A stretch of DNA of 64,000 bases, taken from NCBI GenBank assembly GCA_037349105.1, contig JAYJMM010000120.1, positions 186,001 to 250,000 on the forward strand, in the 5' to 3' direction. The position numbers were made by a program, and so were the translations under genes. The DNA is from Limnomonas spitsbergensis. Taxonomy: Eukaryota; Chlorophyta; Chlorophyceae; Chlamydomonadales. The notes beneath the pieces were generated by a model, which was not told the DNA's origin, made no database searches, and saw only the letters and a list, made by a program, of their open reading frames with translations. Of this stretch, positions 1,360 to 59,015 are shown one piece after another (within the stretch, counting starts at the first letter, position 1; each line of letters opens with the position of its first letter).

Positions 1360-4300
1360 GCCAATGGTGGTTGCAGCCGACACTCCAGGCCACGGCAGCG
1401 CTCCCCGTGACCATGCAGGGCTTCACGGAGACGTACATCTGGGCGCTCCCTGTGTTTCCCGCCACCACCTTCTCCCTTGACATCCCCCTCAGCCAGATAC
1501 CCGCCAGCCGCATCCTGGACGTGTCGGCGCGGCCGGGCGCGTCGCGTTTCACCTCGTTTAAGTATGGGTCATCCAGCGTGGCCGCCGTGTTCTCCTCATA
1601 CCTGGAGCTCAAATACGCAGGGATCCATAGCATCAGGGTGCAGGTGAATGGCTGAAGGAGGGGCAAGACGTGCGCTATTGGTGGTGTCAGGGTGTAGGGT
1701 GCAGGTGAATGGCTGAAGGAGGGGCAAGACGTGCGCTATTGGTGGTGTCAGGGTTTAGGGTGCAGGTGAATGGCTGAAGGAGGGGCAAGACGTGCGCTAT
1801 TGGTGGTGTCAGGGTGTAGGGTGCAGGTGAATGGCTGAAGGAGGGGCAAGACGTGCGCTATTGGTGGTGTCAGGGTTTAGGGTGCAGGTGAATGGCTGAA
1901 GGAGGGGCAAGACGTGCGCTATTGGTGGTGTCAGGGTGTAGGGTGCAGGTGAATGGCTGAAGGAGGGGCAAGACGTGCGCTATTGGTGGTGTCAGGGTTA
2001 AGGGTGCAGGTGAATGGCTGAAGGAGGGGCAAGACGTGCGCTATTGGTGGTGTCAGGGTTTAGGGTGCAGGTGAATGGCTGAAGGAGGGGCAAGACGTGC
2101 GCTATTGGTGGTGTCAGGGTTTAGGGTGCAGGTGAATGGCTGAAGGAGGGGCAAGACGTGCGCTATTGGTGGTGTCAGGGTGTAGGGTGCAGGTGAATGG
2201 CTGAAGGAGGGGCAAGACGTGCGCTATTGGTGGTGTCAGGGTGTAGGGTGCAGGTGAATGGCTGAAGGAGGGGCAAGACGTGCGCTATTGGTGGTGTCAG
2301 GGTTAAGGGTGCAGGTGAATGGCTGAAGGAGGGGCCAGGCGTGCGCTATTGGTGGTGTCAGGGTGTAGGGTGCAGGTGAATGGCTGAAGGAGGGGCAAGG
2401 CGTGCGCTATTGGTGGTGTCAGGGTTTAGGGTGCAGGTGAATGGCTGAAGGAGGGGCAAGACGTGCGCTATTGGTGGTGTCAGGGTTTAGGGTGCAGGTG
2501 AATGGCTGAAGGAGGGGCAAGACGTGTGCTATTGGTGGTGTCAGGGTTTAGGGTGCAGGTGAATGGCTGAAGGAGGGGCAAGACGTGCGCTATTGGTGGT
2601 GTCAGGGTTTAGGGTGCAGGTGAATGGCTGAAGGAGGGGCAAGACGTGCGCTATTGGTGGTGTCAGGGTTTAGGGTGCAGGTGAATGGCTGAAGGAGTGG
2701 CAAGACGTGCGCTATTGGTGGTGTCAGGGTTTAGGGTGCAGGTGAATGGCTGAAGGAGGGGCAAGACGTGCGCTATTGGTGGTGTCAGGGTTTAGGGTGC
2801 AGGTGAATGGCTGAAGGAGGGGCAAGACGTGCGCTATTGGTGGTGTCAGGGTTTAGGGTGCAGGTGAATGGCTGAAGGAGGGGCAAGACGTGTGCTATTG
2901 GTGGTGTCAGGGTGTAGGGTGCAGGTGAATGGCTGAAGGAGGGGCAAGAAGTGCGCTATTGGTGGTGTCAGGGTTTAGGGTGCAGGTGAATGGCTGAAGG
3001 AGGGGCAAGACGTGCGCTATTGGTGGTGTCAGGGTTCAGGGTGCAGGTGAATGGCTGAAGGAGGGGCAAGACGTGCGCTATTGGTGGTGTCAGGGTTTAG
3101 GGTGCAGGTGAATGGCTGAAGGAGGGGCAAGACGTGCGCTATTGGTGGTGTCAGGGTTTAGGGTGCAGGTGAATGGCTGAAGGAGGGGCAAGACGTGCGC
3201 TATTGGTGGTGTCAGGGTTCAGGGTGCAGGTGAATGGCTGAAGGAGGGGCGCGGCCTGCGCTATTGGTGGTGTCAGGGTTTAGGGTGCAGGTGAATGGCT
3301 GAAGGAGGGGCAAGACGTGCGCTATTGGTGGTGTCAGGGTGTAGGGTGCAGGTGAATGGCTGAAGGAGGGGCAAGAAGTGCGCTATTGGTGGTGTCAGGG
3401 TGTAGGTGCAGGTGAATGGCTGAAGGAGGGGCGCGGCCTGCGCTATTGGTGGTGTCAGGGTGTAGGGTGCAGGTGAATGGCTGAAGGAGGGGCAAGACGT
3501 GCGCTATTGGTGGTGTCAGGGTGTAGGGTGCAGGTGAATGGCTGAAGGAGGGGCAAGACGTGCGCTATTGGTGGTGTCAGGGTGTAGGGTGCAGGTGAAT
3601 GGCTGAAGGAGGGGCCAGGCGTGCGCTATTGGTGGTGTCAGGGTGTAGGGTGCAGGTGAATGGCTGAAGGAGGGGCAAGGCCTGCGCTATTGGTGGTGTC
3701 AGGGTTTAGGGTGCAGGTGAATGGCTGGAGGAGGGGCAAGACGTGCGCTATTGGTGGTGTCAGGGTGTAGGGTGCAGGTGAATGGCTGAAGGAGGGGCAA
3801 GACGTGCGCTATTGGTGGTGTCAGGGTTCAGGGTGCAGGTGAATGGCTGAAGGAGGGGCAAGACGTGCGCTATTGGTGGTGTCAGGGTGTAGGGTGCAGG
3901 TGAATGGCTGAAGGAGGGGCAAGACGTGCGCTATTGGTGGTGTCAGGGTTTAGGGTGCAGGTGAATGGCTGAAGGAGGGGCAAGACGTGCGCTATTGGTG
4001 GTGTCAGGGTGTAGGGTGCAGGTGAATGGCTGAAGGAGGGGCAAGGCGTGCGCTATTGGTGGTGTCAGGGTTTAGGGTGCAGGTGAATGGCTGAAGGAGG
4101 GGCAAGACGTGCGCTATTGGTGGTGTCAGGGTTTAGGGTGCAGGTGAATGGCTGAAGGAGGGGCAAGACGTGCGCTATTGGTGGTGTCAGGGTTTAGGGT
4201 GCAGGTGAATGGCTGAAGGAGGGGCAAGACGTGCGCTATTGGTGGTGTCAGGGTTTAGGGTGCAGGTGAATGGCTGAAGGAGGGGCAAGACGTGTGCTAT

Positions 4301-7300
4301 TGGTGGTGTCAGGGTGTAGGGTGCAGGTGAATGGCTGAAGGAGGGGCAAGAAGTGCGCTATTGGTGGTGTCAGGGTTTAGGGTGCAGGTGAATGGCTGAA
4401 GGAGGGGCAAGACGTGCGCTATTGGTGGTGTCAGGGTTCAGGGTGCAGGTGAATGGCTGAAGGAGGGGCAAGACGTGCGCTATTGGTGGTGTCAGGGTTT
4501 AGGGTGCAGGTGAATGGCTGAAGGAGGGGCAAGACGTGCGCTATTGGTGGTGTCAGGGTGTAGGGTGCAGGTGAATGGCTGAAGGAGGGGCAAGAAGTGC
4601 GCTATTGGTGGTGTCAGGGTGTAGGTGCAGGTGAATGGCTGAAGGAGGGGCAAGACGTGCGCTATTGGTGGTGTCAGGGTTTAGGGTGCAGGTGAATGGC
4701 TGAAGGAGGGGCAAGACGTGCGCTATTGGTGGTGTCAGGGTTTAGGGTGCAGGTGAATGGCTGAAGGGGGGGCAAGACGTGCGCTATTGGTGGTGTCAGG
4801 GTTTAGGGTGCAGGTGAATGGCTGAAGGAGGGGCAAGACGTGCGCTATTGGTGGTGTCAGGGTTTAGGGTGCAGGTGAATGGCTGAAGGAGGGGCAAGAC
4901 GTGCGCTATTGGTGGTGTCAGGGTGTAGGGTGCAGGTGAATGGCTGAAGGAGGGGCAAAACGTGTGCTATTGGTGGTGTCAGGGTGTAGGGTGCAGGTGA
5001 ATGGCTGAAGGAGGGGCAAGAAGTCCGCTATTGGTGGTGTCAGGGTTTAGGGTGCAGGTGAATGGCTGAAGGAGGGGCAAGACGTGCGCTATTGGTGGTG
5101 TCAGGGTTCAGGGTGCAGGTGAATGGCTGAAGGAGGGGCGCGGCCTGCGCTATTGGTGGTGTCAGGGTTTAGGGTGCAGGTGAATGGCTGAAGGAGGGGC
5201 AAGACGTGCGCTATTGGTGGTGTCAGGGTGTAGGGTGCAGGTGAATGGCTGAAGGAGGGGCAAGAAGTGCGCTATTGGTGGTGTCAGGGTGTAGGTGCAG
5301 GTGAATGGCTGAAGGAGGGGCGCGGCCTGCGCTATTGGTGGTGTCAGGGTGTAGGGTGCAGGTGAATGGCTGAAGGAGGGGCAAGACGTGCGCTATTGGT
5401 GGTGTCAGGGTGTAGGGTGCAGGTGAATGGCTGAAGGAGGGGCAAGACGTGCGCTATTGGTGGTGTCAGGGTGTAGGGTGCAGGTGAATGGCTGAAGGAG
5501 GGGCCAGGCGTGCGCTATTGGTGGTGTCAGGGTTTAGGGTGCAGGTGAATGGCTGAAGGAGGGGCAAGGCCTGCGCTATTGGTGGTGTCAGGGTTTAGGG
5601 TGCAGGTGAATGGCTGAAGGAGGGGCAAGACGTGCGCTATTGGTGGTGTCAGGGTGTAGGGTGCAGGTGAATGGCTGAAGGAGGGGCAAGACGTGCGCTA
5701 TTGGTGGTGTCAGGGTTTAGGGTGCAGGTGAATGGCTGAAGGAGGGGCAAGACGTGCGCTATTGGTGGTGTCAGGGTTTAGGGTGCAGGTGAATGGCTGA
5801 AGGAGGGGCAAGACGTGCGCTATTGGTGGTGTCAGGGTTTAGGGTGCAGGTGAATGGCTGAAGGAGGGGCAAGACGTGCGCTATTGGTGGTGTCAGGGTG
5901 TAGGGTGCAGGTGAATGGCTGAAGGAGGGGCGCGGCGTGCGCTATTGGTGGTGTCAGGGTTTAGGGTGCAGGTGAATGGCTGAAGGAGGGGCAAGACGTG
6001 CGCTATTGGTGGTGTCAGGGTTTAGGGTGCAGGTGAATGGCTGAAGGAGGGGCAAGACGTGTGCTATTGGTGGTGTCAGGGTGTAGGGTGCAGGTGAATG
6101 GCTGAAGGAGGGGCAAGACGTGCGCTATTGGTGGTGTCAGGGTTTAGGGTGCAGGTGAATGGCTGAAGGAGGGGCAAGACGTGCGCTATTGGTGGTGTCA
6201 GGGTGTAGGGTGCAGGTGAATGGCTGAAGGAGGGGCAAGACGTGTGCTATTGGTGGTGTCAGGGTGTAGGGTGCAGGTGAATGGCTGAAGGAGGGGCAAG
6301 AAGTGCGCTATTGGTGGTGTCAGGGTTTAGGGTGCAGGTGAATGGCTGAAGGAGGGGCAAGACGTGCGCTATTGGTGGTGTCAGGGTTCAGGGTGCAGGT
6401 GAATGGCTGAAGGAGGGGCAAGACGTGCGCTATTGGTGGTGTCAGGGTTTAGGGTGCAGGTGAATGGCTGAAGGAGGGGCAAGACGTGCGCTATTGGTGG
6501 TGTCAGGGTGTAGGGTGCAGGTGAATGGCTGAAGGAGGGGCAAGAAGTGCGCTATTGGTGGTGTCAGGGTGTAGGTGCAGGTGAATGGCTGAAGGAGGGG
6601 CGCGGCCTGCGCTATTGGTGGTGTCAGGGTGTAGGGTGCAGGTGAATGGCTGAAGGAGGGGCAAGACGTGCGCTATTGGTGGTGTCAGGGTGTAGGGTGC
6701 AGGTGAATGGCTGAAGGAGGGGCGCGGCGTGCGCTATTGGTGGTGTCAGGGTGTAGGGTGCAGGTGAATGGCTGAAGGAGGGGCAAGACGTGCGCTATTG
6801 GTGGTGTCAGGGTGTAGGGTGCAGGTGAATGGCTGAAGGAGGGGCAAGACGTGCGCTATTGGTGGTGTCAGGGTTTAGGGTGCAGGTGAATGGCTGAAGG
6901 AGGGGCAAGACGTGCGCTATTGGTGGTGTCAGGGTGTAGGGTGCAGGTGAATGGCTGAAGGAGGGGCAAGACGTGCGCTATTGGTGGTGTCAGGGTTTAG
7001 GGTGCAGGTGAATGGCTGAAGGAGGGGCAAGACGTGCGCTATTGGTGGTGTCAGGGTGTAGGGTGCAGGTGAATGGCTGAAGGAGGGGCAAGACGTGCGC
7101 TATTGGTGGTGTCAGGGTTTAGGGTGCAGGTGAATGGCTGAAGGAGGGGCAAGACGTGCGCTATTGGTGGTGTCAGGGTTTAGGGTGCAGGTGAATGGCT
7201 GAAGGAGGGGCAAGACGTGCGCTATTGGTGGTGTCAGGGTTTAGGGTGCAGGTGAATGGCTGAAGGAGGGGCAAGACGTGTGCTATTGGTGGTGTCAGGG

Positions 7301-10300
7301 TGTAGGGTGCAGGTGAATGGCTGAAGGAGGGGCAAGACGTGCGCTATTGGTGGTGTCAGGGTTTAGGGTGCAGGTGAATGGCTGAAGGAGGGGCAAGACG
7401 TGCGCTATTGGTGGTGTCAGGGTGTAGAGTGCAGGTGAATGGCTGAAGGAGGGGCGCGGCGTGCGCTATTGGTGGTGTCAGGGTTTAGGGTGCAGGTGAA
7501 TGGCTGAAGGAGGGGCAAGACGTGCGCTATTGGTGGTGTCAGGGTTTAGGGTGCAGGTGAATGGCTGAAGGAGGGGCAAGACGTGCGCTATTGGTGGTGT
7601 CAGGGTTTAGGGTGCAGGTGAATGGCTGAAGGAGGGGCAAGACGTGTGCTATTGGTGGTGTCAGGGTTTAGGGTGCAGGTGAATGGCTGAAGGAGGGGCA
7701 AGAAGTGCGCTATTGGTGGTGTCAGGGTTTAGGGTGCAGGTGAATGGCTGAAGGAGGGGCAAGACGTGCGCTATTGGTGGTGTCAGGGTTTAGGGTGCAG
7801 GTGAATGGCTGAAGGAGGGGCAAGACGTGCGCTATTGGTGGTGTCAGGGTTTAGGGTGCAGGTGAATGGCTGAAGGAGGGGCAAGACGTGCGCTATTGGT
7901 GGTGTCAGGGTGTAGGGTGCAGGTGAATGGCTGAAGGAGGGGCAAGACGTGCGCTATTGGTGGTGTCAGGGTTTAGGGTGCAGGTGAATGGCTGAAGGAG
8001 GGGCAAGACGTGTGCTATTGGTGGTGTCAGGGTGTATGGTGCAGGTGAATGGCTGAAGGAGGGGCAAGAAGTGCGCTATTGGTGGTGTCAGGGTTTAGGG
8101 TGCAGGTGAATGGCTGAAGGAGGGGCAAGACGTGCGCTATTGGTGGTGTCAGGGTGTAGGGTGCAGGTGAATGGCTGAAGGAGGGGCAAGACGTGCGCTA
8201 TTGGTGGTGTCAGGGTGTAGGGTGCAGGTGAATGGCTGAAGGAGGGGCAAGAAGTGCGCTATTGGTGGTGTCAGGGTGTAGGTGCAGGTGAATGGCTGAA
8301 GGAGGGGCAAGACGTGCGCTATTGGTGGTGTCAGGGTTTAGGGTGCAGGTGAATGGCTGAAGGAGGGGCAAGACGTGCGCTATTGGTGGTGTCAGGGTTT
8401 AGGGTGCAGGTGAATGGCTGAAGGAGGGGCAAGACGTGTGCTATTGGTGGTGTCAGGGTTTAGGGTGCAGGTGAATGGCTGAAGGAGGGGCAAGACGTGT
8501 GCTATTGGTGGTGTCAGGGTGTAGGGTGCAGGTGAATGGCTGAAGGAGGGGCAAGACGTGCGCTATTGGTGGTGTCAGGGTTTAGGGTGCAGGTGAATGG
8601 CTGAAGGAGGGGCAAGACGTGCGCTATTGGTGGTGTCAGGGTGTAGGGTGCAGGTGAATGGCTGAAGGAGGGGCAAGACGTGTGCTATTGGTGGTGTCAG
8701 GGTGTAGGGTGCAGGTGAATGGCTGAAGGAGGGGCAAGAAGTGCGCTATTGGTGGTGTCAGGGTTTAGGGTGCAGGTGAATGGCTGAAGGAGGGGCAAGA
8801 CGTGCGCTATTGGTGGTGTCAGGGTTCAGGGTGCAGGTGAATGGCTGAAGGAGGGGCAAGACGTGCGCTATTGGTGGTGTCAGGGTTTAGGGTGCAGGTG
8901 AATGGCTGAAGGAGGGGCAAGACGTGCGCTATTGGTGGTGTCAGGGTGTAGGGTGCAGGTGAATGGCTGAAGGAGGGGCAAGAAGTGCGCTATTGGTGGT
9001 GTCAGGGTGTAGGTGCAGGTGAATGGCTGAAGGAGGGGCGCGGCCTGCGCTATTGGTGGTGTCAGGGTGTAGGGTGCAGGTGAATGGCTGAAGGAGGGGC
9101 AAGACGTGCGCTATTGGTGGTGTCAGGGTGTAGGGTGCAGGTGAATGGCTGAAGGAGGGGCGCGGCGTGCGCTATTGGTGGTGTCAGGGTGTAGGGTGCA
9201 GGTGAATGGCTGAAGGAGGGGCAAGACGTGCGCTATTGGTGGTGTCAGGGTGTAGGGTGCAGGTGAATGGCTGAAGGAGGGGCAAGACGTGCGCTATTGG
9301 TGGTGTCAGGGTTTAGGGTGCAGGTGAATGGCTGAAGGAGGGGCAAGACGTGCGCTATTGGTGGTGTCAGGGTGTAGGGTGCAGGTGAATGGCTGAAGGA
9401 GGGGCAAGACGTGCGCTATTGGTGGTGTCAGGGTTTAGGGTGCAGGTGAATGGCTGAAGGAGGGGCAAGACGTGCGCTATTGGTGGTGTCAGGGTGTAGG
9501 GTGCAGGTGAATGGCTGAAGGAGGGGCAAGACGTGCGCTATTGGTGGTGTCAGGGTTTAGGGTGCAGGTGAATGGCTGAAGGAGGGGCAAGACGTGCGCT
9601 ATTGGTGGTGTCAGGGTTTAGGGTGCAGGTGAATGGCTGAAGGAGGGGCAAGACGTGCGCTATTGGTGGTGTCAGGGTTTAGGGTGCAGGTGAATGGCTG
9701 AAGGAGGGGCAAGACGTGTGCTATTGGTGGTGTCAGGGTGTAGGGTGCAGGTGAATGGCTGAAGGAGGGGCAAGACGTGCGCTATTGGTGGTGTCAGGGT
9801 TTAGGGTGCAGGTGAATGGCTGAAGGAGGGGCAAGACGTGCGCTATTGGTGGTGTCAGGGTGTAGAGTGCAGGTGAATGGCTGAAGGAGGGGCGCGGCGT
9901 GCGCTATTGGTGGTGTCAGGGTTTAGGGTGCAGGTGAATGGCTGAAGGAGGGGCAAGACGTGCGCTATTGGTGGTGTCAGGGTTTAGGGTGCAGGTGAAT
10001 GGCTGAAGGAGGGGCAAGACGTGCGCTATTGGTGGTGTCAGGGTTTAGGGTGCAGGTGAATGGCTGAAGGAGGGGCAAGACGTGTGCTATTGGTGGTGTC
10101 AGGGTTTAGGGTGCAGGTGAATGGCTGAAGGAGGGGCAAGAAGTGCGCTATTGGTGGTGTCAGGGTGTAGGGTGCAGGTGAATGGCTGAAGGAGGGGCAA
10201 GACGTGCGCTATTGGTGGTGTCAGGGTTTAGGGTGCAGGTGAATGGCTGAAGGAGGGGCAAGACGTGCGCTATTGGTGGTGTCAGGGTTTAGGGTGCAGG

Positions 10301-13300
10301 TGAATGGCTGAAGGAGGGGCAAGACGTGCGCTATTGGTGGTGTCAGGGTGTAGGGTGCAGGTGAATGGCTGAAGGAGGGGCAAGACGTGCGCTATTGGTG
10401 GTGTCAGGGTTTAGGGTGCAGGTGAATGGCTGAAGGAGGGGCAAGACGTGTGCTATTGGTGGTGTCAGGGTGTATGGTGCAGGTGAATGGCTGAAGGAGG
10501 GGCAAGAAGTGCGCTATTGGTGGTGTCAGGGTTTAGGGTGCAGGTGAATGGCTGAAGGAGGGGCAAGACGTGCGCTATTGGTGGTGTCAGGGTGTAGGGT
10601 GCAGGTGAATGGCTGAAGGAGGGGCAAGACGTGCGCTATTGGTGGTGTCAGGGTGTAGGGTGCAGGTGAATGGCTGAAGGAGGGGCAAGAAGTGCGCTAT
10701 TGGTGGTGTCAGGGTGTAGGTGCAGGTGAATGGCTGAAGGAGGGGCAAGACGTGCGCTATTGGTGGTGTCAGGGTTTAGGGTGCAGGTGAATGGCTGAAG
10801 GAGGGGCAAGACGTGCGCTATTGGTGGTGTCAGGGTTTAGGGTGCAGGTGAATGGCTGAAGGAGGGGCAAGACGTGTGCTATTGGTGGTGTCAGGGTTTA
10901 GGGTGCAGGTGAATGGCTGAAGGAGGGGCAAGACGTGCGCTATTGGTGGTGTCAGGGTTTAGGGTGCAGGTGAATGGCTGAAGGAGGGGCAAGACGTGCG
11001 CTATTGGTGGTGTCAGGGTTTAGGGTGCAGGTGAATGGCTGAAGGAGGGGCAAGACGTGCGCTATTGGTGGTGTCAGGGTTTAGGGTGCAGGTGAATGGC
11101 TGAAGGAGGGGCAAGACGTGCGCTATTGGTGGTGTCAGGGTTTAGGGTGCAGGTGAATGGCTGAAGGAGGGGCAAGACGTGTGCTATTGGTGGTGTCAGG
11201 GTGTAGGGTGCAGGTGAATGGCTGAAGGAGGGGCAAGAAGTGCGCTATTGGTGGTGTCAGGGTTTAGGGTGCAGGTGAATGGCTGAAGGAGGGGCAAGAC
11301 GTGCGCTATTGGTGGTGTCAGGGTGTAGGGTGCAGGTGAATGGCTGAAGGAGGGGCAAGAAGTGCGCTATTGGTGGTGTCAGGGTGTAGGTGCAGGTGAA
11401 TGGCTGAAGGAGGGGTGCGGCCTGCGCTATTGGTGGTGTCAGGGTGTAGGGTGCAGGTGAATGGCTGAAGGAGGGGCAAGACGTGCGCTATTGGTGGTGT
11501 CAGGGTGTAGGGTGCAGGTGAATGGCTGAAGGAGGGGCAAGGCGTGCGCTATTGGTGGTGTCAGGGTGTAGGGTGCAGGTGAATGGCTGAAGGAGGGGCC
11601 AGGCGTGCGCTATTGGTGGTGTCAGGGTGTAGGGTGCAGGTGAATGGCTGAAGGAGGGGCAAGGCGTGCGCTATTGGTGGTGTCAGGGTTTAGGGTGCAG
11701 GTGAATGGCTGAAGGAGGGGCAAGACGTGCGCTATTGGTGGTGTCAGGGTTTAGGGTGCAGGTGAATGGCTGAAGGAGGGGCAAGACGTGTGCTATTGGT
11801 GGTGTCAGGGTGTAGGGTGCAGGTGAATGGCTGAAGGAGGGGCAAGACGTGCGCTATTGGTGGTGTCAGGGTTTAGGGTGCAGGTGAATGGCTGAAGGAG
11901 GGGCAAGACGTGCGCTATTGGTGGTGTCAGGGTTCAGGGTGCAGGTGAATGGCTGAAGGAGGGGCAAGACGTGCGCTATTGGTGGTGTCAGGGTTTAGGG
12001 TGCAGGTGAATGGCTGAAGGAGGGGCAAGACGTGCGCTATTGGTGGTGTCAGGGTGTAGGGTGCAGGTGAATGGCTGAAGGAGGGGCAAGAAGTGCGCTA
12101 TTGGTGGTGTCAGGGTGTAGGTGCAGGTGAATGGCTGAAGGAGGGGTGCGGCCTGCGCTATTGGTGGTGTCAGGGTGTAGGGTGCAGGTGAATGGCTGAA
12201 GGAGGGGCAAGACGTGCGCTATTGGTGGTGTCAGGGTGTAGGGTGCAGGTGAATGGCTGAAGGAGGGGCAAGACGTGCGCTATTGGTGGTGTCAGGGTGT
12301 AGGGTGCAGGTGAATGGCTGAAGGAGGGGCCAGGCGTGCGCTATTGGTGGTGTCAGGGTGTAGGGTGCAGGTGAATGGCTGAAGGAGGGGCAAGGCGTGC
12401 GCTATTGGTGGTGTCAGGGTTTAGGGTGCAGGTGAATGGCTGAAGGAGGGGCAAGACGTGCGCTATTGGTGGTGTCAGGGTGTAGGGTGCAGGTGAATGG
12501 CTGAAGGAGGGGCAAGACGTGCGCTATTGGTGGTGTCAGGGTTTAGGGTGCAGGTGAATGGCTGAAGGAGGGGCAAGACGTGCGCTATTGGTGGTGTCAG
12601 GGTGTAGGGTGCAGGTGAATGGCTGAAGGAGGGGCAAGACGTGCGCTATTGGTGGTGTCAGGGTTTAGGGTGCAGGTGAATGGCTGAAGGAGGGGCAAGA
12701 CGTGCGCTATTGGTGGTGTCAGGGTGTAGGGTGCAGGTGAATGGCTGAAGGAGGGGCGCGGCGTGCGCTATTGGTGGTGTCAGGGTTTAGGGTGCAGGTG
12801 AATGGCTGAAGGAGGGGCAAGACGTGCGCTATTGGTGGTGTCAGGGTTTAGGGTGCAGGTGAATGGCTGAAGGAGGGGCAAGACGTGCGCTATTGGTGGT
12901 GTCAGGGTTTAGGGTGCAGGTGAATGGCTGAAGGAGGGGCAAGACGTGCGCTATTGGTGGTGTCAGGGTTTAGGGTGCAGGTGAATGGCTGAAGGAGGGG
13001 CAAGACGTGCGCTATTGGTGGTGTCAGGGTGTAGGGTGCAGGTGAATGGCTGAAGGAGGGGCAAGACGTGCGCTATTGGTGGTGTCAGGGTGTAGGGTGC
13101 AGGTGAATGGCTGAAGGAGGGGCAAGAAGTGCGCTATTGGTGGTGTCAGGGTTTAGGGTGCAGGTGAATGGCTGAAGGAGGGGCAAGACGTGCGCTATTG
13201 GTGGTGTCAGGGTTCAGGGTGCAGGTGAATGGCTGAAGGAGGGGCAAGACGTGCGCTATTGGTGGTGTCAGGGTTTAGGGTGCAGGTGAATGGCTGAAGG

Positions 13301-35678: not shown

Positions 35679-35681
35679 CTA

Positions 35682-36082: not shown

Positions 36083-36083
36083 C

Positions 36084-38594: not shown

Positions 38595-38640
38595 CCCCTA
38601 ACCCCTAACACCTCACCCCTAACACCTAACCCCTAACCAT
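38595..38640. repeat. CCCTAAC-like border tract
   Basis: acccctaacacctcacccct and related imperfect CCCTAAC units close the heptamer array. Confidence 0.75.
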
Positions 38641-38649
38641 CCAGGTGAG

Positions 38650-40393: not shown

Positions 40394-40435
40394 GCTGGGT
40401 GGTCAGGGCTGCTGACCGGGAGGTCATGGAGGTAA

Positions 40436-42635: not shown

Positions 42636-42807
42636 TTTCTATTTTGTATTGGGCACAAACAGCTGCCTGCCTGACACTGTCCCGATAGGAGTCACACCCT
42701 CTGGTCACACCCTGTCACACCCTCTGGTCACACCCTGAGCATCAATCCACAACCCACTGCTTCCATCATAACACCAGAGATCCAATTCTTAAGATGCCGC
42801 GCTCATA

Positions 42808-45800: not shown

Positions 45801-48800
45801 TGATATAATTAGCGGTAATTAAAACAGAGTCCAAAAATACGCGGAACTTACATTGAAGGCTATTGTGCTGGGCCATGCTCCCGCTGTTGGTATCAGGAAC
45901 GTCTGCATGAATCCCACTGCTGCCGTGGTGGTGCTGATGGCTGCATCTCCTGGGAAGAGCAGTGCACCAAGCTTACCGGCCCCGGGATCAGACACTGCAG
46001 TGGTGTACTGGTACTGGGAGGTGGGGGTGGACGTAGCCACTGTAGAGAAGCGGATTGGTTGGGATGTCGTGTTCACTTTGTTGTAGAAAACCTGGACAGG
46101 CATGCGGTGGATCGATTCATTATTGTGTTGGTGTTAGGCGGGCCTTGAATAAAGAAGCTGTCCCTTGTCCCTAATTGGTGTGGCAAGACTCAGGCAGGTT
46201 TCTTGTCGTGAGCGCACCTGCCACAGGCTGGACAGCTTTGCGTCCTGAGCAAAGTCCGGCATTTTGAAGACGGACGGTCCGTGCGCAACAAACCCATAAT
46301 AGGAGGAGAAGCTCGGGGCGCTCGGAGGCTGGAACAGCAGGCTGTAGCGCACATTAGGCATCGGGTAGGCAATGCGCAGCTCAAAATCATACAAGCCTGC
46401 GTGAAAGTACCGTAGAGCATAAAAGAAAATAAGCAAACAAAAAATGTTTGGATCATTGGATCTCAATGTTTCAGAGCACGAGTGAGTACAGGACAGCACA
46501 GTCGTGCTCATGCAGCCGCTCATGGTCCTCATGTAGTGAGCAGTTTGCGTCCGCTTGCCTTTTGCATTCGCCATGAACAGCCCCCTTTGTGTGGTCGCGT
46601 TGATGGGCACCTGCAGCCCGTTGATGTATACCCAAGTGGATAGGCTGCTGGCAGCTGTCTGCACCTGGACGCCCCAAACGCCCGTCTGGCTGAGCTGCAG
46701 CAGGGCCGCGTAAGTCACAATCACCTGGAAGGAGGAGATAGGAGGGACAGGGAAATGGTCACTCTGTTACTAAGGCTCATCTCATGATGGGGCAAGTGAT
46801 GGCTGCACTTGATGAGACAGACAACTATGCATGCAGATCGCACTTTTATGAGTTTTGCTTTCAAACAGGTGTGTCTACCCTGTACTGCCGGTTTGTACTT
46901 CTTTGCACGTACGCCTGCATTGTATTTGAACGAGGTGAGGTTGGCGGGGTTCGCTGGACTGCTGATCTCGCGCAAGGACACGTCAAAAGGTATGCCCAAG
47001 ACTGCGTTGGAAAACTGGCCGTCAGAGGCAACGTAGTAGCTCTCCACTAGCCCTTGAAATGCCAGGGAGGCTGGCGGTGGCGACGCGCTGCTGTAGACGG
47101 GGCTCAGCTTGACCAAGGCTGCATGGAGAGGAAGCAGTGGGGGTCAACAAGGTGGAGATAACTGCAATGAAACTGCTGTGTATGATGAATGAGAAATGCG
47201 CCGCTTAATTCACCAATATGCTCTTTGTCCTCTTAATTCACAAAAACTGAAATATGCTGCTTGTCCTCGTCTATTTAAGCCCGAATACTCTCTGTGGGTT
47301 CCCTTGAGACACCCTTACCCTTATGTTTTCTGGGCAGTCACTTACTTGACCTTTCTTGCCACACTTCAGATCCATTCAGATCCATTATATCCGTTCAGAT
47401 CCGTTAGATCCCCCATAATTTGATCTCCGCTCTTATCACCATGCCACTGTCACTCAGTTTGGATTTGTTTGAGGCTGGCTGGATGCATGGCCCTTGATCA
47501 CCTGCCCCCAGCTGGCTGGCTGCGAGGAGCATGGACGCCCCTGCACTCAGCCTGGCCTGAGAGGCCCAGGGGAGCGGCCCAGAGGGAGGGCGATGGCCCG
47601 AGCTCATCAGCAAGGAGCGCACCTGCACATGCAACGAGACACAAATAGGAACTCAAAAGGTAGAGAGCAGGTGAAAAGAACACCAAGTCATCCAATACCA
47701 GATACAGGTGTACTGGAGGCTGTCTTCCGGGTCCCTTTATTTCCAAATTATTTGGCACCAGCATCTTGGAGAGTGTGCATCGATGATCAGAATGAGCGCA
47801 AAGCCTAGAAATGCATCTGATCCTGAGATTTGCAGATACTGAAACCAGGCATGGGACAATGCGGCATGGGGCAATGCAAGCAGGGCATGGGCCCATGCAA
47901 GCAGGGCAGATACAGCACAGCCCCACAGTGCTAGCTCATGATACCCCTTCCGATACCGATTTAGAGATCGCCACGCCCACCTTTGCCCCCTCACCTGCTC
48001 CGCCTTATAGTAATTGCCATCCGCTGCCCCTAGAAGGCTGAGTGTGAGAGCAGCGGAGCCACTGACAAGGGGAGCGGCCATGGAGGTGCCGTTGAGGGGA
48101 CCGTAGGTGTGGGAGACAACTGCAGGGACAGGCGCATTCAGGACCAGGGGAACATGACAGCTTCAAGTAGCGCTTGCAATTATCCCATGAATAATGAAGG
48201 TGGCCATGGAGGTGCTGTTGAGGGGACCGTAGGTGTGGGAGACAACTGCAGGGACAGGCGCATTCAGGACCAGGTGAACATGACAGCTTCAAGTAGCGCT
48301 TGCAATTATCCCATGAATAATGAAGGTGGCCATGGAGGTGCCGTTGAGGGGGCTGTAGGTGTGGGAGACAACTGCAGGGACAGGCGCATTCAGGACCAGG
48401 TGAACATGACAGCTTCAAGTAGCGCTTGCAATTATCCCATGAATAATGAAGGTGGCCATGGAGGTGCTGTTGAGGGGACCGTAGGTGTGGGAGATAACTG
48501 CAGGGACAGGCGCATTCAGGACCAGTAGAACATGACAGCTTCAAGTAGCGCTTGCAATTATCCCATGAATAATGAAGGTGGCCATGGAGGTGCTGTTGAG
48601 GGGACCGTAGGTGTGGGAAACAACTGCAGGGACAGGCGCATTCAGGACCAGGTGAACATGACAGCTTCAAGTAGCGCTTGCAATTATCCCATGAATAATG
48701 AAGGTGGCCATGGAGGTGCTGTTGAGGGGGCTGTAGGTGTGGGAGATAACTGCAGGGACCCCGGGCATTCAGGAAAGGGTGGACAAGTCAGTTTTAATTC

Positions 48801-51800
48801 ACATTTATAATCATCTTCGGAACTATGGGGGTGGCCATGGATGCACCGTTGAGGACTTGAGAGGGCCATATGTTTGGCAGATGAATGCAGGGACCGAGAT
48901 GCATTCAGGAAAGGGTGGACGTGACAGTTCTAACGTTGAGAACGCCATATGCGTGGGAGATGACCTCAGGGCTAGGGGTGGATTCTGGAAAGGGTGGACT
49001 AGTCAATTTTCATAAGCCCTAACGATATCAACTGAACAGCAATGCTTCAGTGTACCTGTGCAGTTAACCTGTGCAGCAGATCAACTTGGGTACTCGCCAT
49101 CCAGCCTGGCCATGTTTGTTGCTCACCGGTATCGTTGCGGTACAACGTGCTGTAAATTTGTACTGCCGGTGCCCCTAGGTGGACCGTATTGCTGCCGTAG
49201 TTGGAGAAGCTTGCCTGCGGGGCAGCAGCGGGCCTCTGTTACAGCACCAGGCCTCAAGGCCTCAAGAGGTGCACGTCAAATAAGACAACGACCGGTAAGA
49301 TCCTGGCCAGGCCCTCACGAACAAGTCCGAAAATTGGCCTCTTCAGCCGTCTGCAGGTGCAACGATCCTGATAACCGACATAGGACGTGACCTTCATCTG
49401 GATCATCTTTGGTCTAATTGCTCAGGACGCTTCGGTAATTTCAGAGCTACAGTGCTTTCGTTACAGCTGGGCACATCTATCCTGCCAGACCCAGGGGTGT
49501 GACGGCAGGACTAACCCGGGAGTCGTCGGCATCCGTTCCTCCCACACACAGCACGTTAGGCAGGCTGACAAGGCAGGGGGCGTAGGAGTAGCCCAGGCTG
49601 GACAAGAGATCCATGTCGATGCCCTCGTTGCCTGGAAAACAAGGGGAAGGGACGAACAGGGGACATGAACACAGGGGATACAAAAGCATGTGGCATGTGA
49701 ACAGGTGGCATATTCAGTTATTAACATGTGGCATATTAACAGGGGACCTATGCAAACCCTGCACAGCGGATCCTTGCATGGTCAGAGGGAGACAGTCGAC
49801 ATCTCCAGTACCTTGCAATGTGTGTTCGAACTTCAGTTGCAAGCTGAAAAACAATTCTGGTTCCTCCAATCCGCCGCACGCTGCTCCCCCCCAACACACA
49901 CACAGCCAGTGGTACCTGCAGACACCACTGCCAGCACGCCCTTGGAGGCCAGTGGCTGCAGGGCGGAGACGTACGCCGCCGTCCACTGAGAGTGGTACGA
50001 GGGAGCTCGGACACTGGGGCTGAACCCCACCGCGTAGGGCGCGCCGAAGGAGCACGATACAATGTGCGCGCTCATCCTGAGTGCATAGTCAAAGGCTTGG
50101 AACACCGACGACGCCTGGATGGATCCCGTCATGCAGTCAGATACCTGCGCGATTGCCACGGCTCATTTTAGGGTTTAGGGGTTTAGGTGACTGATTATAT
50201 TAGGGTTTAGGGTTAAGGTCAGTGCTCATTTTAGGGTAAACGGTATAGGTCAGTGCTTCAGTGGCACTTCCGCTTAAACCCTGCCTGATGCAGCAAAGCC
50301 CTGTTGCTGGACTGATGCAGACGTGTTATTTGCTGGGTGCAAGCCTGTTGCAAGGTTTTCTAAATGCAGCCCTGGAGAGTGAGACCAGAGCCCATCAGAT
50401 GTCTCACACTTAAAAAGATCGATGACAGATGGCCCCAGATTTCTGGCCAGCCGCACTACAGCTGGCCCAAAACTGCACGACTAAGAATCCAAGAGATCGG
50501 CACCAGATTTCCCAATGCTTTCTGGGCAGCAACGCCGCGGCAATGGGGAGGGGGATGCGCCCTGTAAGAGGCTGCTGCCAGAAAACGCCCGAACCCCAGC
50601 TGCCATTCGGAAATGTAACCCCTGCTTCACGTGTGTCAGTGTGTGTGCTTGAGAGCTGTGGGGGCGGGGGTCTCACCCTGAGGATGAGGGTTAAGGGTTG
50701 AGAGCTGTGGGGGCGGATTCCTCACTCTGAGTATCATGGTTAAGGTTTGAGAGCTGTGGGGGCGAGGGGCCTCACCCTGAGGATCATCAGCTTGACACCG
50801 GGAGCAATGCCAGTCATGCCCAGGAAGTTGTCCTGGACCGCTCCAATCAGACCCGCAGCATGGGTGCCGTGGTAGTATGCAGAGTTCACGTTGGAGTCTG
50901 CGTACGGCATGGAGGTCCCCGTGCATGCGTTGCACTGCCCCGTGGATGCGTCAACACCGCTGCACTTGCCGGCAAAACTGTACCCGTACACATCATCAAT
51001 GTAGCCTGCATCAGGCAGGGGGCCAATGGGCGGGGGGGGGGGGGGATGTGCTGGAGTATGCATCAGCGCAGCAGAGTAGCAGACAGAGCCAATCATTATG
51101 CCGTAAATCATTGATGAGGGTGGCAGGTGCAACGATCGTAGTCATCCTACTAACCTGTTAAGGGCGGTCACTACATCTGGATTCTTGGGTCTAACTGGTA
51201 AGGACGCTTCGGCAGGACTGCCATCCATGCGAAGTGCATACTCGGCCTCGGTGACACTGCTGTAAGTGGAGCACTCACCACTGCTCCATTTCCAGCCTCG
51301 TTCCTTTCCACACCGTTCTAATCCTCATCCAGTATAGTGCCGGGAAATCTCCGCACCATTGACCCAGGCGGTGGCCACTAGGTCAGGGTTTTAAGGGTTC
51401 AGAGGCTTCCTGTCTTTTGGCTCACCGTTCCCAGTCTCATCCAGATCATTGGTGGGAACCTCCGCATCATTGTCTCAGAGGTTGCCCAGGAGGTCAGGGT
51501 TAAGGGTTCAGGGGCTTCCTGGTTTTTAGCTCACCATTTCCATCATCATCAATGCCGTTGCCGGGAATCTCCCCGCTGTTCACCCAGAGGTTGGCTTTCA
51601 GGTCAGGGTGGTCCAGGTCCACTCCAACGTCGATGACGGCAACCACAATGGGGGATCCTACACAGCGATGGACGATAGGAGCTCTGACAACAGCAGGCGG
51701 CAGGCAATGCCCAACAGGAGGCAAGCCATCTGAGATAGAAGCCAATGGCTATTCACATCACCATCCCTCTTCATATCATTGCCATCCTCCAGCAGTCTTA

Positions 51801-53648
51801 AGGACCTGCTGGGGAGGGCAGCCAGCCTAACACGCCCCACCTGTCATGTACTGCCTAACTCGCCCCACCTGCCATATACTGCCTAACTCTCCCCACGTGC
51901 CATGTACTGCCTAACTCTCCCCACCTGCCATGCACTGCCTAGCTCGCCCCACCTGCCATGTACTGCCTAACTCTCCCCATATGTCATGTACTGCCTAGCT
52001 CGCCCCACCTGTCATGTACTGCCTAACTCTCCCCACCTGTCATGTACTGCTTAACTCTCCCCACCTGCCATGCACTGCCTAGCTCTCCCCACCTGCCATG
52101 TACTGCCTAACTCTCCCCACCTGCCATGTACTGCCTAGCTCGCCCCACCTGTCCTGTACTGCCATGCCCCGGTGGCATTGATGAGGTCCACGTAGTACTG
52201 TGAGCCGTTGAGGTAGAAGGGGTCGTTGATGGGCGGGATGACCTGGAAGCACGGGGGACAACAAGCGGCCTGGCTCAGGGCAATGAGCAGGTAAGTTGCA
52301 ATCTTGCAGCTTCAGAAGGTGAATAATCCGCATCAGGCTTCAGTCCCCCGAATATTCATGCGGTTGGGATGTACTATGAATTCCTGGGATCTACATCTGA
52401 GATCTATAAGGAATGTCTGAGATCTACAATGTCTTCTTGGCATGGGTAGATTCAGACATGACACTGCTTGCTTACCGCAGCCCAGGCATCGCCAGCAGCT
52501 TCTTTCAGGCGGTTGATAATGTCTTGCAGCGTGGCGTCATTGGCCACCAGGCTCAGCAGCCGATCCACCGTGCCATCAGGCAAGGGAGACGACATGCTGA
52601 AGTCCCGTGTTAGGAAGTTCAGGCCTAATGAGCAGTACAAGTGACGGCGCGCATCGTTGAAAAATCAGAGGGGGCTGATGATGCAGTTCCATCGCATCCT
52701 TAGCCAGAACGAAGGAGATCGCCATTTTCTGTCAAAGCATCGTTACCGGTAGCCCCAGTCGTACTGGTGATGAGGTGATCCAATACTGGCCGCAGCCTGT
52801 CATTCCCATCCTCCCCCCCCAGCCTGTCACTCCCAAGAGTTCCAGTCTGTCACTTCCAGCCTGTCACTCTCAGCCTGTCACTCCCAGCCTGTCACTCCCA
52901 GCGACCCAACCTGCACTCCCAAGTCTGCCATTGCCAGCGACCCAACCTGCACTCCCCAGCCTCTCACCCCTAGGATTTCCAGCCTGGCACTCCAACTTTG
53001 CCACTCCTAGTGTTTCAGCCTGCCCCACAAAGCCTGCCATTCCCAGGGACCCAGCCTGCACCCCCCAGCCAGCCACTTCCATCCTCCCACTCCCAGGATT
53101 TACGACCTGTCACTGCCAGCCTGCCGCCCCCATCCTGCCATTCCCAACCACTCAGCCTGCACCCCCCGGCCTGCCACTCCCAGCCTGCCACTTACTTGAA
53201 TCTCCCCGAAGGTACTTGAGCGCCTCCTGAAGTATGCTCTCAGTTTCAAAGTTGAGGATTTGGATGTTGGATGTGTTGAGCATAAGGCTGGTTATATACT
53301 CCCGCAGCAGGGGGGGAATCAGGTCCAAGGCGAAAACACTATGGTTCAAGTAGTTGAGCAGCAGGCGCGGAGACCCAATCGAGAGACCCTCCTGGAATCA
53401 GTGCGGGAGAAAGAGCTGCTGATGTGTTTGTGCAAGTGTTTGGCAGCATTGCGCATTTTTCAGTCCTGAACTAACTACCAGTCGAGTGAGTATGGACGTC
53501 TGAAGAGGACCTTGGTTGCTTGGCTGTGGCAGCGCAGCAATCTCAGTTGACCATGACAGCCTGATACACACACCTGATGCAAGCCAGTTGATCCAGGAGG
53601 GCAGCCGCTGACGATGCATATGGGGATCGCCACTGCCACCGCCACCAT
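42808..53648 (-). CDS. Gene B: subtilase (S8) with C-terminal PA14-like domains, 1232 aa
   Basis: Exons: 53648-53574, 53391-53196, 52624-52476, 52242-52149, 51657-51535, 51005-50776, 50144-49916, 49631-49516, 49214-49127, 48119-47995, 47622-47502, 47118-46913, 46724-46559, 46396-46218, 46091-45852, 45728-45606, 45402-45228, 44915-44749, 44593-44243, 43950-43753, 43605-43522, 43224-43117, 42963-42808 (TAA). The sum is 3699 nt, exactly 1233 codons. The catalytic triad is Asp181 in VAVIDVGVDLDHPDL, His258 in YYHGTHAAGL and Ser446 in LNGTSMAAPLVSG; the oxyanion Asn is 367 in VVSAGN. The N-terminus is hydrophobic (signal peptide or anchor). An alternative acceptor at 53702 would add LSAALISCLAAI upstream, implying an unseen first exon. 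C-terminal PA14-like cores include CQLLVDGRVVVD (residues 785-796). One donor (after 46559) is GC instead of GT. Substrates are unknown; algal subtilases such as sporangin act on cell walls. Confidence 0.9.
44023..44215. repeat. Intronic repeats with acceptor-like CTCTTCTTCTAG
   Basis: About seven imperfect 24-30-bp units read, on the coding (minus) strand, agcttgatcctcttcttcta followed by gcctgatgc. At least four contain ctcttcttctag, a strong 3' splice-site look-alike. The true acceptor of this intron is at 43951. Confidence 0.8.
45030..45115. repeat. Dispersed repeat fragment in an intron of gene B
   Basis: Diverged second copy of the repeat at 39050-39155 (cttttgctgggacttaa through cagcccgggtgcgca). 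Confidence 0.6.
48076..49010. repeat. 126-bp repeats copying a 3' splice site plus the catalytic-serine exon start
   Basis: The motif ggccatgg recurs at 48076 (inside the real exon), 48202, 48328, 48453, 48580, 48706 and 48833, a period of about 126 bp. On the coding strand each unit has cctgtccctgcag followed by the first 43 nt of the exon, including the codons for GTSMA. Copies near the exon are almost identical; those beyond 48760 are clearly diverged. Open plus-strand frames here are shadows of the multiple-of-three period. Confidence 0.93.
50162..50250. repeat. Short TTTAGGG/TTAGGG tract in an intron
   Basis: gggtttaggggtttaggtga and following ttagggtttagggttaagg lie in the intron between the His exon and the next exon of gene B. 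This looks like a small interstitial telomere-type patch. Confidence 0.7.
50660..50790. repeat. Three copies of an exon end plus donor (period about 50 bp)
   Basis: On the coding strand the real exon end atgatcctcagg|gtgagg (donor at 50775) is followed by atgatactcaga|gtgagg (about 50726) and catcctcagg|gtgag (about 50677), each with a cgcccccacagctctcaa block. Confidence 0.85.
51265..51600. repeat. Diverged copies of the Asp-exon end plus donor
   Basis: The tail of the exon 51657-51535 (gttcacccagaggttggc through ctcaccatttcc on the plus strand) is echoed at about 51419-51488 and 51270-51378, each copy keeping a GTGAG-type donor on the coding strand and gggaa(c/t)ctccgc-type exon sequence. 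Confidence 0.75.
51833..52155. repeat. 28-bp array (about 12 copies) starting at a donor site
   Basis: Plus-strand unit catgtactgcctaactctcc plus ccacctgc. On the coding strand the exon ending at 52149 reads agtacaggacag|gtggggcgag, and each unit repeats agtacatggcag|gtggggagag. Thus about 12 donor look-alikes follow the real one. Confidence 0.92.
52780..53195. repeat. TGGCAGGCTGGGAG short tandem repeats abutting a donor
   Basis: Irregular units of 12-30 bp (cagcctgtcactcccagcct and gcgacccaacctgcactccc on the plus strand) fill the intron from directly next to the donor of the exon ending at 53196 (tcaa|gtaagtggcaggctggga). Confidence 0.85.
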
Positions 53649-55647: not shown

Positions 55648-56636
55648 TCTTGATCGCACTGAACACTGAGACTTTATATAGGCTTGGAAATGCTTTCTTT
55701 GCAGAATAAAACGTATGTTTGCAAAGATGTTGCAACATGCAGCGCATGATATTCTGACAAAGTTTACATTTTGTTATGGACCTTATGGTTTTCACGTTGT
55801 AGGCTGGGCACTGGCATTACTGTGGCAAGGCAGTGAGGGTAAAGTGGCATTGGGGGTGAGGCATTTTATCTTGACATTCGCATTAGATTGGTAGCATCAC
55901 AATTTCCACTGATTTCTTGCCGGCACCCATAGGCAGATGATACGCTTTATTTTCATCAGTTAGGCATGTGATCAATTTTCTCTACGTGTACCAGTAGGTA
56001 TATCAGCTACATTGGTACTACACCATCACGAGTACACTCACAAGATTGTCTTGGATATGACATTTGTTAGGAAAATAGGTTGAAACAGACTGCCGTTTTG
56101 CCTTCTAGGTTCATGAAATGATATGGAATATCAGGTTAGGATGCAGTTATCATGACTAATTGGAAACGGTGTGATGTATTCTTGAAATGTGTCGGTCCAC
56201 GAGCTCGTCTATGGGCACTGGGCAGCATGCATGCGCAATTGCGCATGGGCTGTGAAACCTGTCTGGCTAAAAACAAATTTCTAAAATACCGAAAAGCATA
56301 TTTTCAGGAGTCATTAGTTTTTATATCTGGCATCTATATGTTTAGTTTTTAAATCTGGCATTTATAAGAAAAGCAGAGCATCAGATTTGATGCATGCTGC
56401 ATTAAATACACCAGTTAATGAAAAACTTGAGTCGGTGCTGCCTTCGAAATTAAAATGCGAAACTATCACAGAAAGTGTGATCAAAATGTAAAAGTATCGA
56501 AGGAGACGACAATGCTTGATTAATATTATTGCCACAACAACGTTCGTCCTAAAAAATTCAAGATTTCACTCGTGCCGCAAAGACGCCAGTCTCCGTGGCC
56601 TTGGATCTATGTAAATCCCAAATTCAGCTCACGTTC
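55648..56636. other. Convergent intergenic region, no gene recognised
   Basis: AT-richer sequence between the stop codons of the two-exon gene and the SMP-30-like gene. Open frames are short and lack motifs. It probably holds both 3' untranslated regions. Confidence 0.5.
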
Positions 56637-59015
56637 CTAGATCAGCAGATGCACTGCAGTGATCTTGCCCTCTTGCATCATCACGAGCGACTGGCCTGCA
56701 AGCGCAAAATTAGCCACCCCTCCCACCAAGATGCTACCCAGCAGCTTCCCGGAGTCAGCATACACATGCACCCCGTCCCCACAGCCAACAAACAGATTGC
56801 CCGCTTCATCCACCTTCAGGCCATCCGGAATGCCGGTGCTGCACGTAGCAAACAGCCTGCGGCTGCCAATCACTGTGCCCCGGTGTGTAACATCAGCCAC
56901 ATAAACGGAATGTGGCCTCCCGGGACTAAAGCTCCCGGTGCCCATATAGAAACCAGTGTCGCTGATGTACAGCTTCCGGCCGTTGGGGGAGAAGGCAAGG
57001 CCGTTCGGCTTGACAAAGCCCTCGGCCGCCACGGACGCGATGCTTGTGACTGGGTCGAACCCCCACACATACTCTCCGAGCTGCGGCTGATTTTTGAAGC
57101 GCTGCTCCGCCCCGTACGAGGGGTCCGTGAAGAACATCATCCCGGACTTGGGGTGGACCACAATGTCGTTGGGGCTGTTGAACTGCAAGCCTTGCCAGTT
57201 ATCGAGGATAGGACGAGATCTGTGTCATGAGGTCTAGCTCGACAATCCCGCCCGCACTCGTGGTGTTGCCCTGGGCGAGAACGAGGATCGTCGCACCAGA
57301 GGACCTAGACAGGAAGGCACCATTTGCCATGACGATGGGGGGCGATGGCTGCAGTACATGGATGGAGTTGTCATCCAGGTAGATGAGGGAGGTCTCGACG
57401 TACTGTGCATCGGAGGAGAGGTTGCCAAGCCTGTGGTCACAGGGGTAGGTACCGAGGTAAATAATGGGTCCTACGTAGCCATAATTCAAGCAGGAGCATC
57501 AGGCATGATTACAAGCACATCTTGGCGGATGGATCGGTGACAGAAGAGTACTGACACAACGCTTTGGGTGCGTACACCTGTGAGCTGCTGGGCGCCCACG
57601 CGGCCGAGCTTTGAGCGGGCCCAGAGGTGTAACGTTATTGACCTGTGAGCAGCAACACCACCACCGCTCCACATGCTCACATGACCAGGATGGCGGGTAT
57701 GCACCACCCTTAATCAGTGAGCATGTGGAGCAGTGGTGGTACAACAGCCCTGAGGCAAGAGTGCACGGGTGGTCTGCCAGACAGATTCATCATTGCTTGC
57801 ATTCAGGTCACCAGGTCGGCTGACCTGTTTGAAGTAAAGAAGACGGCATTGAGGCGCTCCACGTATACCTGCGATCATGGAACACATGACGCATTGGTGT
57901 CACACGCCCATGCCCGACAACGCGCCATACAGCACAAGAGGTCCTGTTTAGCCAGCTTTGCAGCTAGCATTCATGTCTTGAGACGGTGAATGATGAGCGT
58001 CATGGGCTGACACAGGGCTTCGGTCAGTGCTCTTGCCATGAAATGGCAGTTTGGGACGTTGGGCTGGCTGCTAGTGACACTGGAGGGTGGCTTGGTGTAG
58101 CAATAAACCTGCGCACCTAGACCACTGTGTATGTGTTATGCCGATTGGGACCTGAGTCGCTGAGTGCATTGTTATGTATTCCATGTTAAGAGCCCTTCAC
58201 TAAACACTGTACACCCCGCCAAGAAGCTGCTGTGTATCATCCATACTGAGTAGCGTAGTCCGCAAAATGGATATCATATGCACATCAGAAAGTCAGAATA
58301 CCAGAACCGGTATACAATCTCAGAAACTCAGACATCAGAAATGAAGAATGCTTCACCTGCTGGACAATGAAAGTACGGTATCGTGGCTACTGGCTACTGC
58401 ACGAGCTTGAGCCCCACCCCTGACCCGTGGGCACTGTATTATTGATGACGAGAATTAGAAGTATGATACGTTGCGCTCAGCCAGGATGCAGATGGTCTTT
58501 GTGACGACCAGCACGTGAAAATTGAAAGCAGAACTTGTACCGTACATCAGAAAAGACAGCAGAAAGTACTTACCGGTCCATCAGAATCACTGATCGAAAT
58601 CTCAGACCAAGATTTCAAACAGGGCGTGAGAGAGGAACGCTACACCTGACTGGGTACTAGAGGTACCAAATAGGTTATGTAGCCACTGCACAAGCTTGAG
58701 ACTTACCCCTGCTTCATGAGCGAAGGAGTAATTGCGCTCAGCTAAGGTGTAGATGGCCGTCGTGTCAACCAGGGAGTGAAAAGCCGGGTCGTATGCGATG
58801 AACGAGCAGCCGGACACATCGAAGTTCTGATTTGGTGGAACTCCACCCACGGTCAGGAAGGAGGAGGTGACATCCCGCTGCACTGAAGGACCCAGCACGG
58901 CCCAGGCTGGGGTCCAAGAGCACGAGGTTGCCACGTCGACTACCACGTTTGCTTCTGATGAGCCCCTCACCACAATGAGAGTAACAGAGACAAGAACAAC
59001 GAAGACAAACATCAT
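56637..59015 (-). CDS. Secreted SMP-30/gluconolactonase-like protein, one frame break
   Basis: Exons: 59015-58707, 57868-57825, 57642-57578 and 57470-56637 (TAG); junction phases agree. Residues 1-22 are a clear signal peptide (MMFVFVVLVSVTLIVVRG). FIAYDPAFHSLV and FAHEAG|VYVERLNAVFFTS are the standard entry to the beta-propeller. NGAFLSRSSGATILVLAQG, FNSPNDIVVHPKSG, MMFFTDPSYG, KPNGLAFSPNGRKLYISDTG and PDGLKVDEAGNLFVG follow in the order of SMP-30/gluconolactonase/lactonohydrolase proteins, which hydrolyse lactones or bind Ca2+. Between 57197 and 57229 the frame shifts by one base: the first frame runs into TAA at 57197, the second, DNWQGLQFNSPND, is closed upstream by TGA. This is either an assembly error or a recent inactivation. 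About 416 residues if the break is an error. The substrate is unknown. Confidence 0.85.
58385..58770. repeat. Exon-end duplication in intron 1 of the SMP-30-like gene
   Basis: The end of exon 1 and its donor (plus strand gcacaagcttgagacttacc through gcgctcagctaaggtgtaga) is echoed in the downstream intron at 58396-58515 (gcacgagcttgagccccacc through gcgctcagccaggatgcaga), with a 30-bp insert. Confidence 0.7.

Follow-up and report, generated by a model that had tools for sequence, protein, structure and literature searches.

Minisatellites whose units straddle an exon-intron boundary are known from amphioxus. There, the 'mirage' minisatellites of Adh3, the globin genes BflGb6 and BflGb9, TnC and PGBD5 are minisatellite-like tandem duplications of such boundaries that are reported not to disturb splicing (PMC3087553, PMC3902484). 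We describe such arrays in a 64,000-nucleotide stretch of contig JAYJMM010000120.1 (the window) and in loci sampled from the same genome, which comprises 260 Mb in 124 contigs. As in amphioxus, the units span both 5′ and 3′ boundaries, and many of them keep the AG/GT signals. Mirages of the amphioxus type also have a copy number that is unstable between alleles or in the soma; our arrays come from a single assembly. The differences are that the host is likely a green alga, that one array reaches about 259 copies, and that several genes of a random sample are affected.

Three other systems are close enough to be compared. In the potato RdRp gene, splice signals come from a tandem duplication that runs over an intron-exon boundary, and an intron has been gained in this way (PMC4974935). 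In our case an existing intron has been lengthened instead; the junction was already there, and the units that cover it include part of the intron. In human segmental duplicates, minisatellite variation among internal tandem repeats at boundaries alters the exon-intron structure (PMC2812944); in that system half of the repeats lie in coding exons, those at boundaries can form novel introns, and RNA evidence was used. Finally, a survey of 31 species (PMC3887541) found a U-shaped distribution in which tandem repeats gather near the ends of introns, most markedly in Chlamydomonas and Volvox. Our arrays share the nonrandom placement toward intron ends. The survey differs in that it concerns units of 1-50 bp with GT/AC as the abundant intron motif, and the available part of it describes no junction-spanning units. 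Our literature search, which covered open-licence papers and mostly their titles and the beginnings of their abstracts, found no green-algal report of junction-spanning minisatellites, and the portions of PMC8226300, PMC6823432 and PMC7046594 that were available hold nothing on junction-spanning repeats. What we see is a real structure of a known kind, present in several genes of a lineage for which it is probably new, and with an extreme copy number.

The initial annotation of the window had listed eight introns from three genes in which tandem arrays begin exactly at an exon-intron border and include the junction. Seven of the eight cases do cross a predicted junction, and they are distributed over gene A, gene B and an SMP-30-like gene, as had been claimed, with the caveat that the borders of these genes are predictions. 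In each of the seven, the tandem unit consists of an exon edge, the splice site and the adjoining intron. The exact coincidence with the border was not found: the arrays start or finish within the exon, so that the units include 9-76 nt of the exon end (at donors) or 44 nt of the exon start (at the acceptor). We rejected the eighth case, the intronic arrays by donor 53195 of gene B (52842-53192, minus strand; Tandem Repeats Finder, TRF), because the first array begins 3 nt inside the intron.

The largest array belongs to gene A, on the plus strand. The exon at 1360-1643, supported by an open frame and by 25% identity to gene B across the join, ends in the duplicated donor CAG|GTGAATGG. From 1635 to 17451, TRF finds about 259 copies of a 61-bp unit made up of 9 nt of exon, the donor and 52 nt of intron. 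The exact string GCAG|GTGAATGG occurs 255 times in this array, and the spacing indicates five units without it. Read on into the array, the frame hits TGA 10-12 nt past the first donor. A 50-bp array of 18 copies (447-1354, 98% matches) stops 5 nt before the acceptor of the same exon, which thus has arrays on both flanks. Part of the 61-bp unit recurs in inverted orientation at 17455-17502, where the giant array ends on its 3′ side (21-nt arms, 90% complementary), possibly the trace of a template switch.

The remaining crossing cases are smaller. In gene B, on the minus strand, a 28-bp unit is repeated 12.1 times across donor 52149 (51825-52163; 15 nt of exon in the unit) and a 49-bp unit 2.8 times across donor 50776 (50649-50786; 11-12 nt of exon), in the latter case with about 10 nt of telomere-like sequence between copies. 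A 109-bp unit repeated 2.1 times across donor 51535 (51338-51572; TRF and alignment) contains a diverged copy of the segment encoding GIDDDGNG; the array or alignment extends 38-59 nt into the exon. At acceptor 48119, a 126-bp unit is repeated 5.5 times (48076-48774; TRF, with the junction supported by the algal protein P0002, see below). This array ends 44 nt into the exon, and its exon part encodes the GTSMA serine motif. Two further duplications are older and gapped, and TRF overlooked both. At donor 19833 of gene A (19818-20071, plus strand), 19818-19910 is copied at 19979-20071, that is, -16 to +77 at +145 to +238 relative to the donor (alignment score 74, maximum of 43 in 300 shuffles). 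At donor 58707 of the SMP-30-like gene (58343-58782, minus strand), 58632-58782 is copied at about 58343-58521, or -76 to +75 at +185 to +364 (74.5, shuffle maximum 37.5). Where this alignment test gives a gene B donor a score of exactly 80, the sequence has merely overlapped itself, and the score is uninformative.

How much these cases mean depends on the gene models. Joining exons 1-12 of gene B (46913-53648, minus strand) forms a single open frame, and the product is a subtilase (Pfam PF00082 at 1e-41, and at 3.1e-41 with the 515 aa of exons 1-11). Its two best matches are P0001, a transcript from MMETSP (57% identical across 60% of the query), and P0002, a predicted protein of Chlamydomonas euryale from EukProt (64% over 46%), from which we judge the host to be likely a chlorophyte. 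The first 11 exons align with P0001 through 53195, 52149, 51535 and 50776; the alignment with P0002 runs through 48119, where P0002 has three extra residues. In these alignments the copied segments are absent from the proteins of both relatives, and the conserved subtilase motifs GIDDDGNG and GTSMA lie within the segments of gene B that have been copied.

The product of gene A has no Pfam hit, and none of the 7996 proteins scored is homologous to it. It does resemble the C-terminal region of gene B (355 alignment columns at 25% identity, with a two-sequence E of 5e-20), and over this region the two genes are likely paralogous. The alignment runs across both gene A joins, at 1643 and 19833. Hence, the borders of gene B are backed by algal relatives and those of gene A by paralogy with gene B, including the exon that follows the 16-kb intron (17901-18021, plus strand) and the exon with the duplicated donor at its end (19606-19833, plus strand), both of which the gene finder also predicts. 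The giant-array intron (1643-17901) is absent at the aligned position of gene B (about 46660), which means that an intron was gained or lost. Both genes share the following intron, which comes after the APG/AKG codons. At 46397-46558, gene B has a predicted GC-AG intron (AAAAG|GCAAGC), for which an intron at the corresponding position of gene A provides support. In the third gene, the SMP-30 Pfam hit falls on the last exon, and the exon ending at 58707 is an ab initio prediction.

Our gene finder is small and ab initio, and it was self-trained on genes A and B. Its recovery of these genes is therefore no independent check. It returns the training exons of gene B plus one false exon (51473-51426), which is a copied exon segment. 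It recovers gene A from 17901 on and places the end of the 1643 exon at 1655 instead. One gene B exon end entered the placement statistics as 46560, where the sequence suggests 46559.

We then have to consider the rest of the genome, which we sampled with 17 random 10-kb stretches from other contigs (L001-L017). After exclusion of genes scoring below 40 and of L014, which has a repeat-like translation, 11 of the 17 loci were kept. A further cut on exon score leaves 56 introns outside the window and 87 with the window included; one retained model, in L012, contains a stop codon split by an intron. Pfam was run on 10 of the 14 proteins predicted from the models (one of them shortened), and 8 of the 10 have a family at E <= 0.001. 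The L001 and L003 proteins have no Pfam family, and the BAR match in L004 sits just below the curated cut-off.

Junction-spanning arrays occur at donor 4906 and acceptor 7541 of a formamidase-family gene (L002), at donors 805 and 7198 of the gene in L003, at donor 6820 of the BAR-like gene (L004) and at acceptor 3966 of a class I/II aminotransferase gene (L005), where the copied segment codes for an NPNNP stretch. The exon-score cut removed some of these clear cases (L003 donor 7198, L004 donor 6820, L002 acceptor 7541). Further cases in the sample, including L006 2750 and 8486, are weaker. A scan for 24-mers, which is independent of TRF and overlooked 51535 and 58707 in the window, finds spanning copies at 9 donors and 5 acceptors, out of 87 of each. 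Outside the window, the counts are 5/56 and 4/56, or 9 of 112 predicted junctions. With shuffled introns, a spanning copy turned up in 4 of 3480 tests. Exon-interior points have a copy in 6 of 1512 cases versus 14 of 174 junctions (P 2e-10), in a control that was searched within the exon only, so that a copy has less room there than in introns. Tandem repeats fill between 0.3% and 78% of each 10-kb sample, with a coverage of 41-78% in L013, L017, L003, L014 and L006.

The extra splice sites in the arrays are mostly intact. In the 61-bp array, which has about 259 extra units, 254 of them hold the exact donor string; these decoys were found by exact-string look-up, and their scores are equal by construction. 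At L003 donor 7198 all 21 of 21 decoys equal the original in score, and 12 of 16 are intact at L003 donor 805. Donor 52149 keeps its GT in 10 of 11 copies and acceptor 48119 its AG in 5 of 7. The L005 acceptor has 4 of 5 decoys intact, and in L002 one of two is intact at the donor and one of two at the acceptor. This suggests that splicing would use the innermost pair of splice sites flanking the exon and ignore the decoys.

We consider it probable that these arrays are 'mirage' minisatellites: untargeted tandem duplications across predicted borders, tolerated because the innermost original site would still be used. The first copy would be made by untargeted tandem duplication, as is likely for minisatellites throughout the genome. 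A duplication that begins in the exon and ends in the intron would not displace the first donor (or last acceptor) belonging to the exon itself, and every later copy would consequently be intronic. With a spliceosome that pairs splice sites over the exon, the nearest donor and acceptor flanking the coding segment would win, the decoys would stay silent and the mRNA would be unchanged. Once seeded, the array could grow and shrink like any minisatellite, and the intron would gain one unit per step. Outside the window, duplications affect donors and acceptors to about the same extent (5 and 4), which fits the use of the innermost site better than a rule by which the first-made site is used, since the latter tolerates donors only. 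The initial annotation had also offered selection that tolerates duplications when they supply a duplicate splice site, and our data fit this idea, with junction-crossing copies common and exon-interior copies rare. The stricter version, in which the spliceosome of this alga would only ever pair splice sites over the exon, with perfect duplicates in the intron invisible in any number (such as the 254 exact decoy donors behind one exon), junction duplication neutral and introns free to grow by it from their ends, strikes us as possible but rather doubtful.

That the duplications are untargeted is indicated by their placement. For a unit of length u placed at random but in contact with an intron whose length before expansion was L0, the probability of crossing a particular junction is about u/(L0 + u). 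Random duplications of 30-130 bp in introns of 200-500 bp must therefore often cross junctions, which means that the baseline of the initial annotation was too low; with the baseline corrected, random placement by itself predicts frequent junction crossing. Outside the window (56 introns, 37 arrays), 3 arrays cross donors and 2 cross acceptors, compared to 2.13 expected per side (P 0.36 and 0.66), and two of these five (L006 2750 and 8486) are weak. There is no excess outside the window at any of four exon-score cuts; with the cut lifted, 102 introns give 6 donors and 4 acceptors versus 3.67 per side (P 0.15 and 0.51). Splice-like motifs in DNA without predicted genes lead to the same result. 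Spanning copies are found at 6.3% of donor-like and 5.4% of acceptor-like motifs (copies collapsed), and the junction counts from the 24-mer scan do not differ significantly from these rates, either outside the window (P 0.28 and 0.36) or with the window included (P 0.10 and 0.51). For splice-like motifs on the sense strand of introns the values are 7.1% and 5.9%. The sample is small: the 95% interval of the donor rate is 4.8-18.7%, which is compatible with up to about a threefold excess over the 6.3% motif control.

Several observations weigh against the account we prefer. First, we infer the use of the first donor or last acceptor, and the exon borders are predicted. Intron definition, which a Volvox study (PMC4378016) deduces for these algae from the length of their introns, would favour the decoy nearest the acceptor. 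Second, the window taken alone has 4 donor crossings versus 0.83 expected (P 0.005), next to 1 acceptor crossing versus 0.83, and window and sample together (87 introns) have 7 donors versus 2.96 (P 0.019) and 3 acceptors (P 0.59). The window, however, was picked for this very feature. Third, donors have spanning copies more often than arbitrary intron points do (9/87 versus 3.5%, P 0.003; outside the window 5/56 versus 3.4%, P 0.042); acceptors are not significantly raised (two-sided P 0.22 for all, 0.11 outside the window). Conservation at junctions, which keeps old copies recognisable, may explain the raised donors. Antisense-strand motifs in introns, at 3.7% and 2.3%, lie below the nongenic motifs. 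Fourth, among arrays wholly inside introns outside the window, only 9 of 61 lie in the middle third, compared to 18.3 in simulations (P 0.002). Pure random placement leaves this avoidance unexplained. Under a single-array null, array ends are also in mild excess within 20 nt of acceptors (6 versus 2.33, P 0.024), which was not upheld when arrays were placed jointly. Lastly, we considered whether arrays near intron edges are decayed mirages and rejected this for arrays in general, as none of the 21 arrays near donors and only 2 of the 16 near acceptors pass at p<=0.05; one of the two, at L003 acceptor 3138, is a clear exon copy.

The donor excesses are what a mechanism acting at splice sites would predict. 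Such a mechanism, for example break repair or R-loop slippage at donors, had been suggested in the initial annotation and would make duplications start at these sites preferentially. Strand composition agrees in part, with 7 of 10 donor-crossing arrays being G-rich on the sense strand. However, only 26 of all 70 intronic arrays are G-rich in sense, so that intronic arrays lean C-rich, contrary to the R-loop expectation. Beyond the window there is no excess, motif-matched nongenic sites are hit alike, and acceptors are struck about as often as donors. We regard such a mechanism as unlikely, and on present evidence a splice-site-specific mechanism is not supported. Intronic arrays as a whole have a strong strand skew (median |GC skew| 0.30 versus 0.11 in non-array intron, P 1e-9, window and sampled loci).

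Growth of introns from their ends is, in our view, an explanation with marginally less chance still. Here, arrays would be seeded near or across junctions and older sequence would be pushed toward the middle of the intron, yielding a U-shaped distribution. The shortage in the middle third is in the same direction in three length classes (4/20, 4/23 and 2/24, window included), and the published U-shape is strongest in Chlamydomonas and Volvox (PMC3887541). Yet the near-edge arrays have no general trace of the neighbouring exon, and the joint simulation shows no clear excess of array edges in the 20 nt next to a splice site (donors 3 versus 2.5; acceptors 5 versus 2.7, P 0.12). The comparison of array edges with simulated positions in the random sample, a check of the sort proposed in the initial annotation, brought out the avoidance of the middle third and no clear crowding at splice sites. 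Exons that the gene finder missed in long introns would yield the same shape and could contribute to the depletion.

That the exon borders are simply wrong, the copied 'exon' segments being ordinary intron repeats or the arrays encoding optional protein repeats, might be argued from the predicted nature of the borders and the missing homologue of gene A, but it is very improbable given that gene B aligns with its relatives through all five cited junctions, that the copied segments carry conserved subtilase motifs, that the alignment between genes A and B covers both joins, and that the frame entering the 61-bp array runs into a TGA just past the first donor.

The arrays also have a telomere-like component. 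Of 156 array units, 22 contain telomere-like motifs, compared to 5.2% of non-array segments of equal length (P 2e-5, L001-L017 and the window), and telomere-like sequence separates copies at the L002 donor as it does at 50776. Telomere-like filler at copy junctions was tried as a mechanism and rejected: over 138 arrays, the junction-segment count is 137 compared to 137.6 in permutations (P 0.55). In the window, 36088-38638 is a telomere-like satellite of about 365 copies of the 7-bp AACCCCC.

The amphioxus mirages have been described gene by gene (PMC3087553, PMC3902484), whereas here, in the 24-mer scan, 9 of 112 predicted junctions outside the window have a spanning copy. This suggests that genomes rich in minisatellites produce mirages as a general by-product, and that introns grow by means of them. 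Each array is also a natural competition experiment, in which near-identical donors or acceptors lie at known distances from one exon. Through such arrays, the choice between exon definition and intron definition in green algae becomes directly testable.

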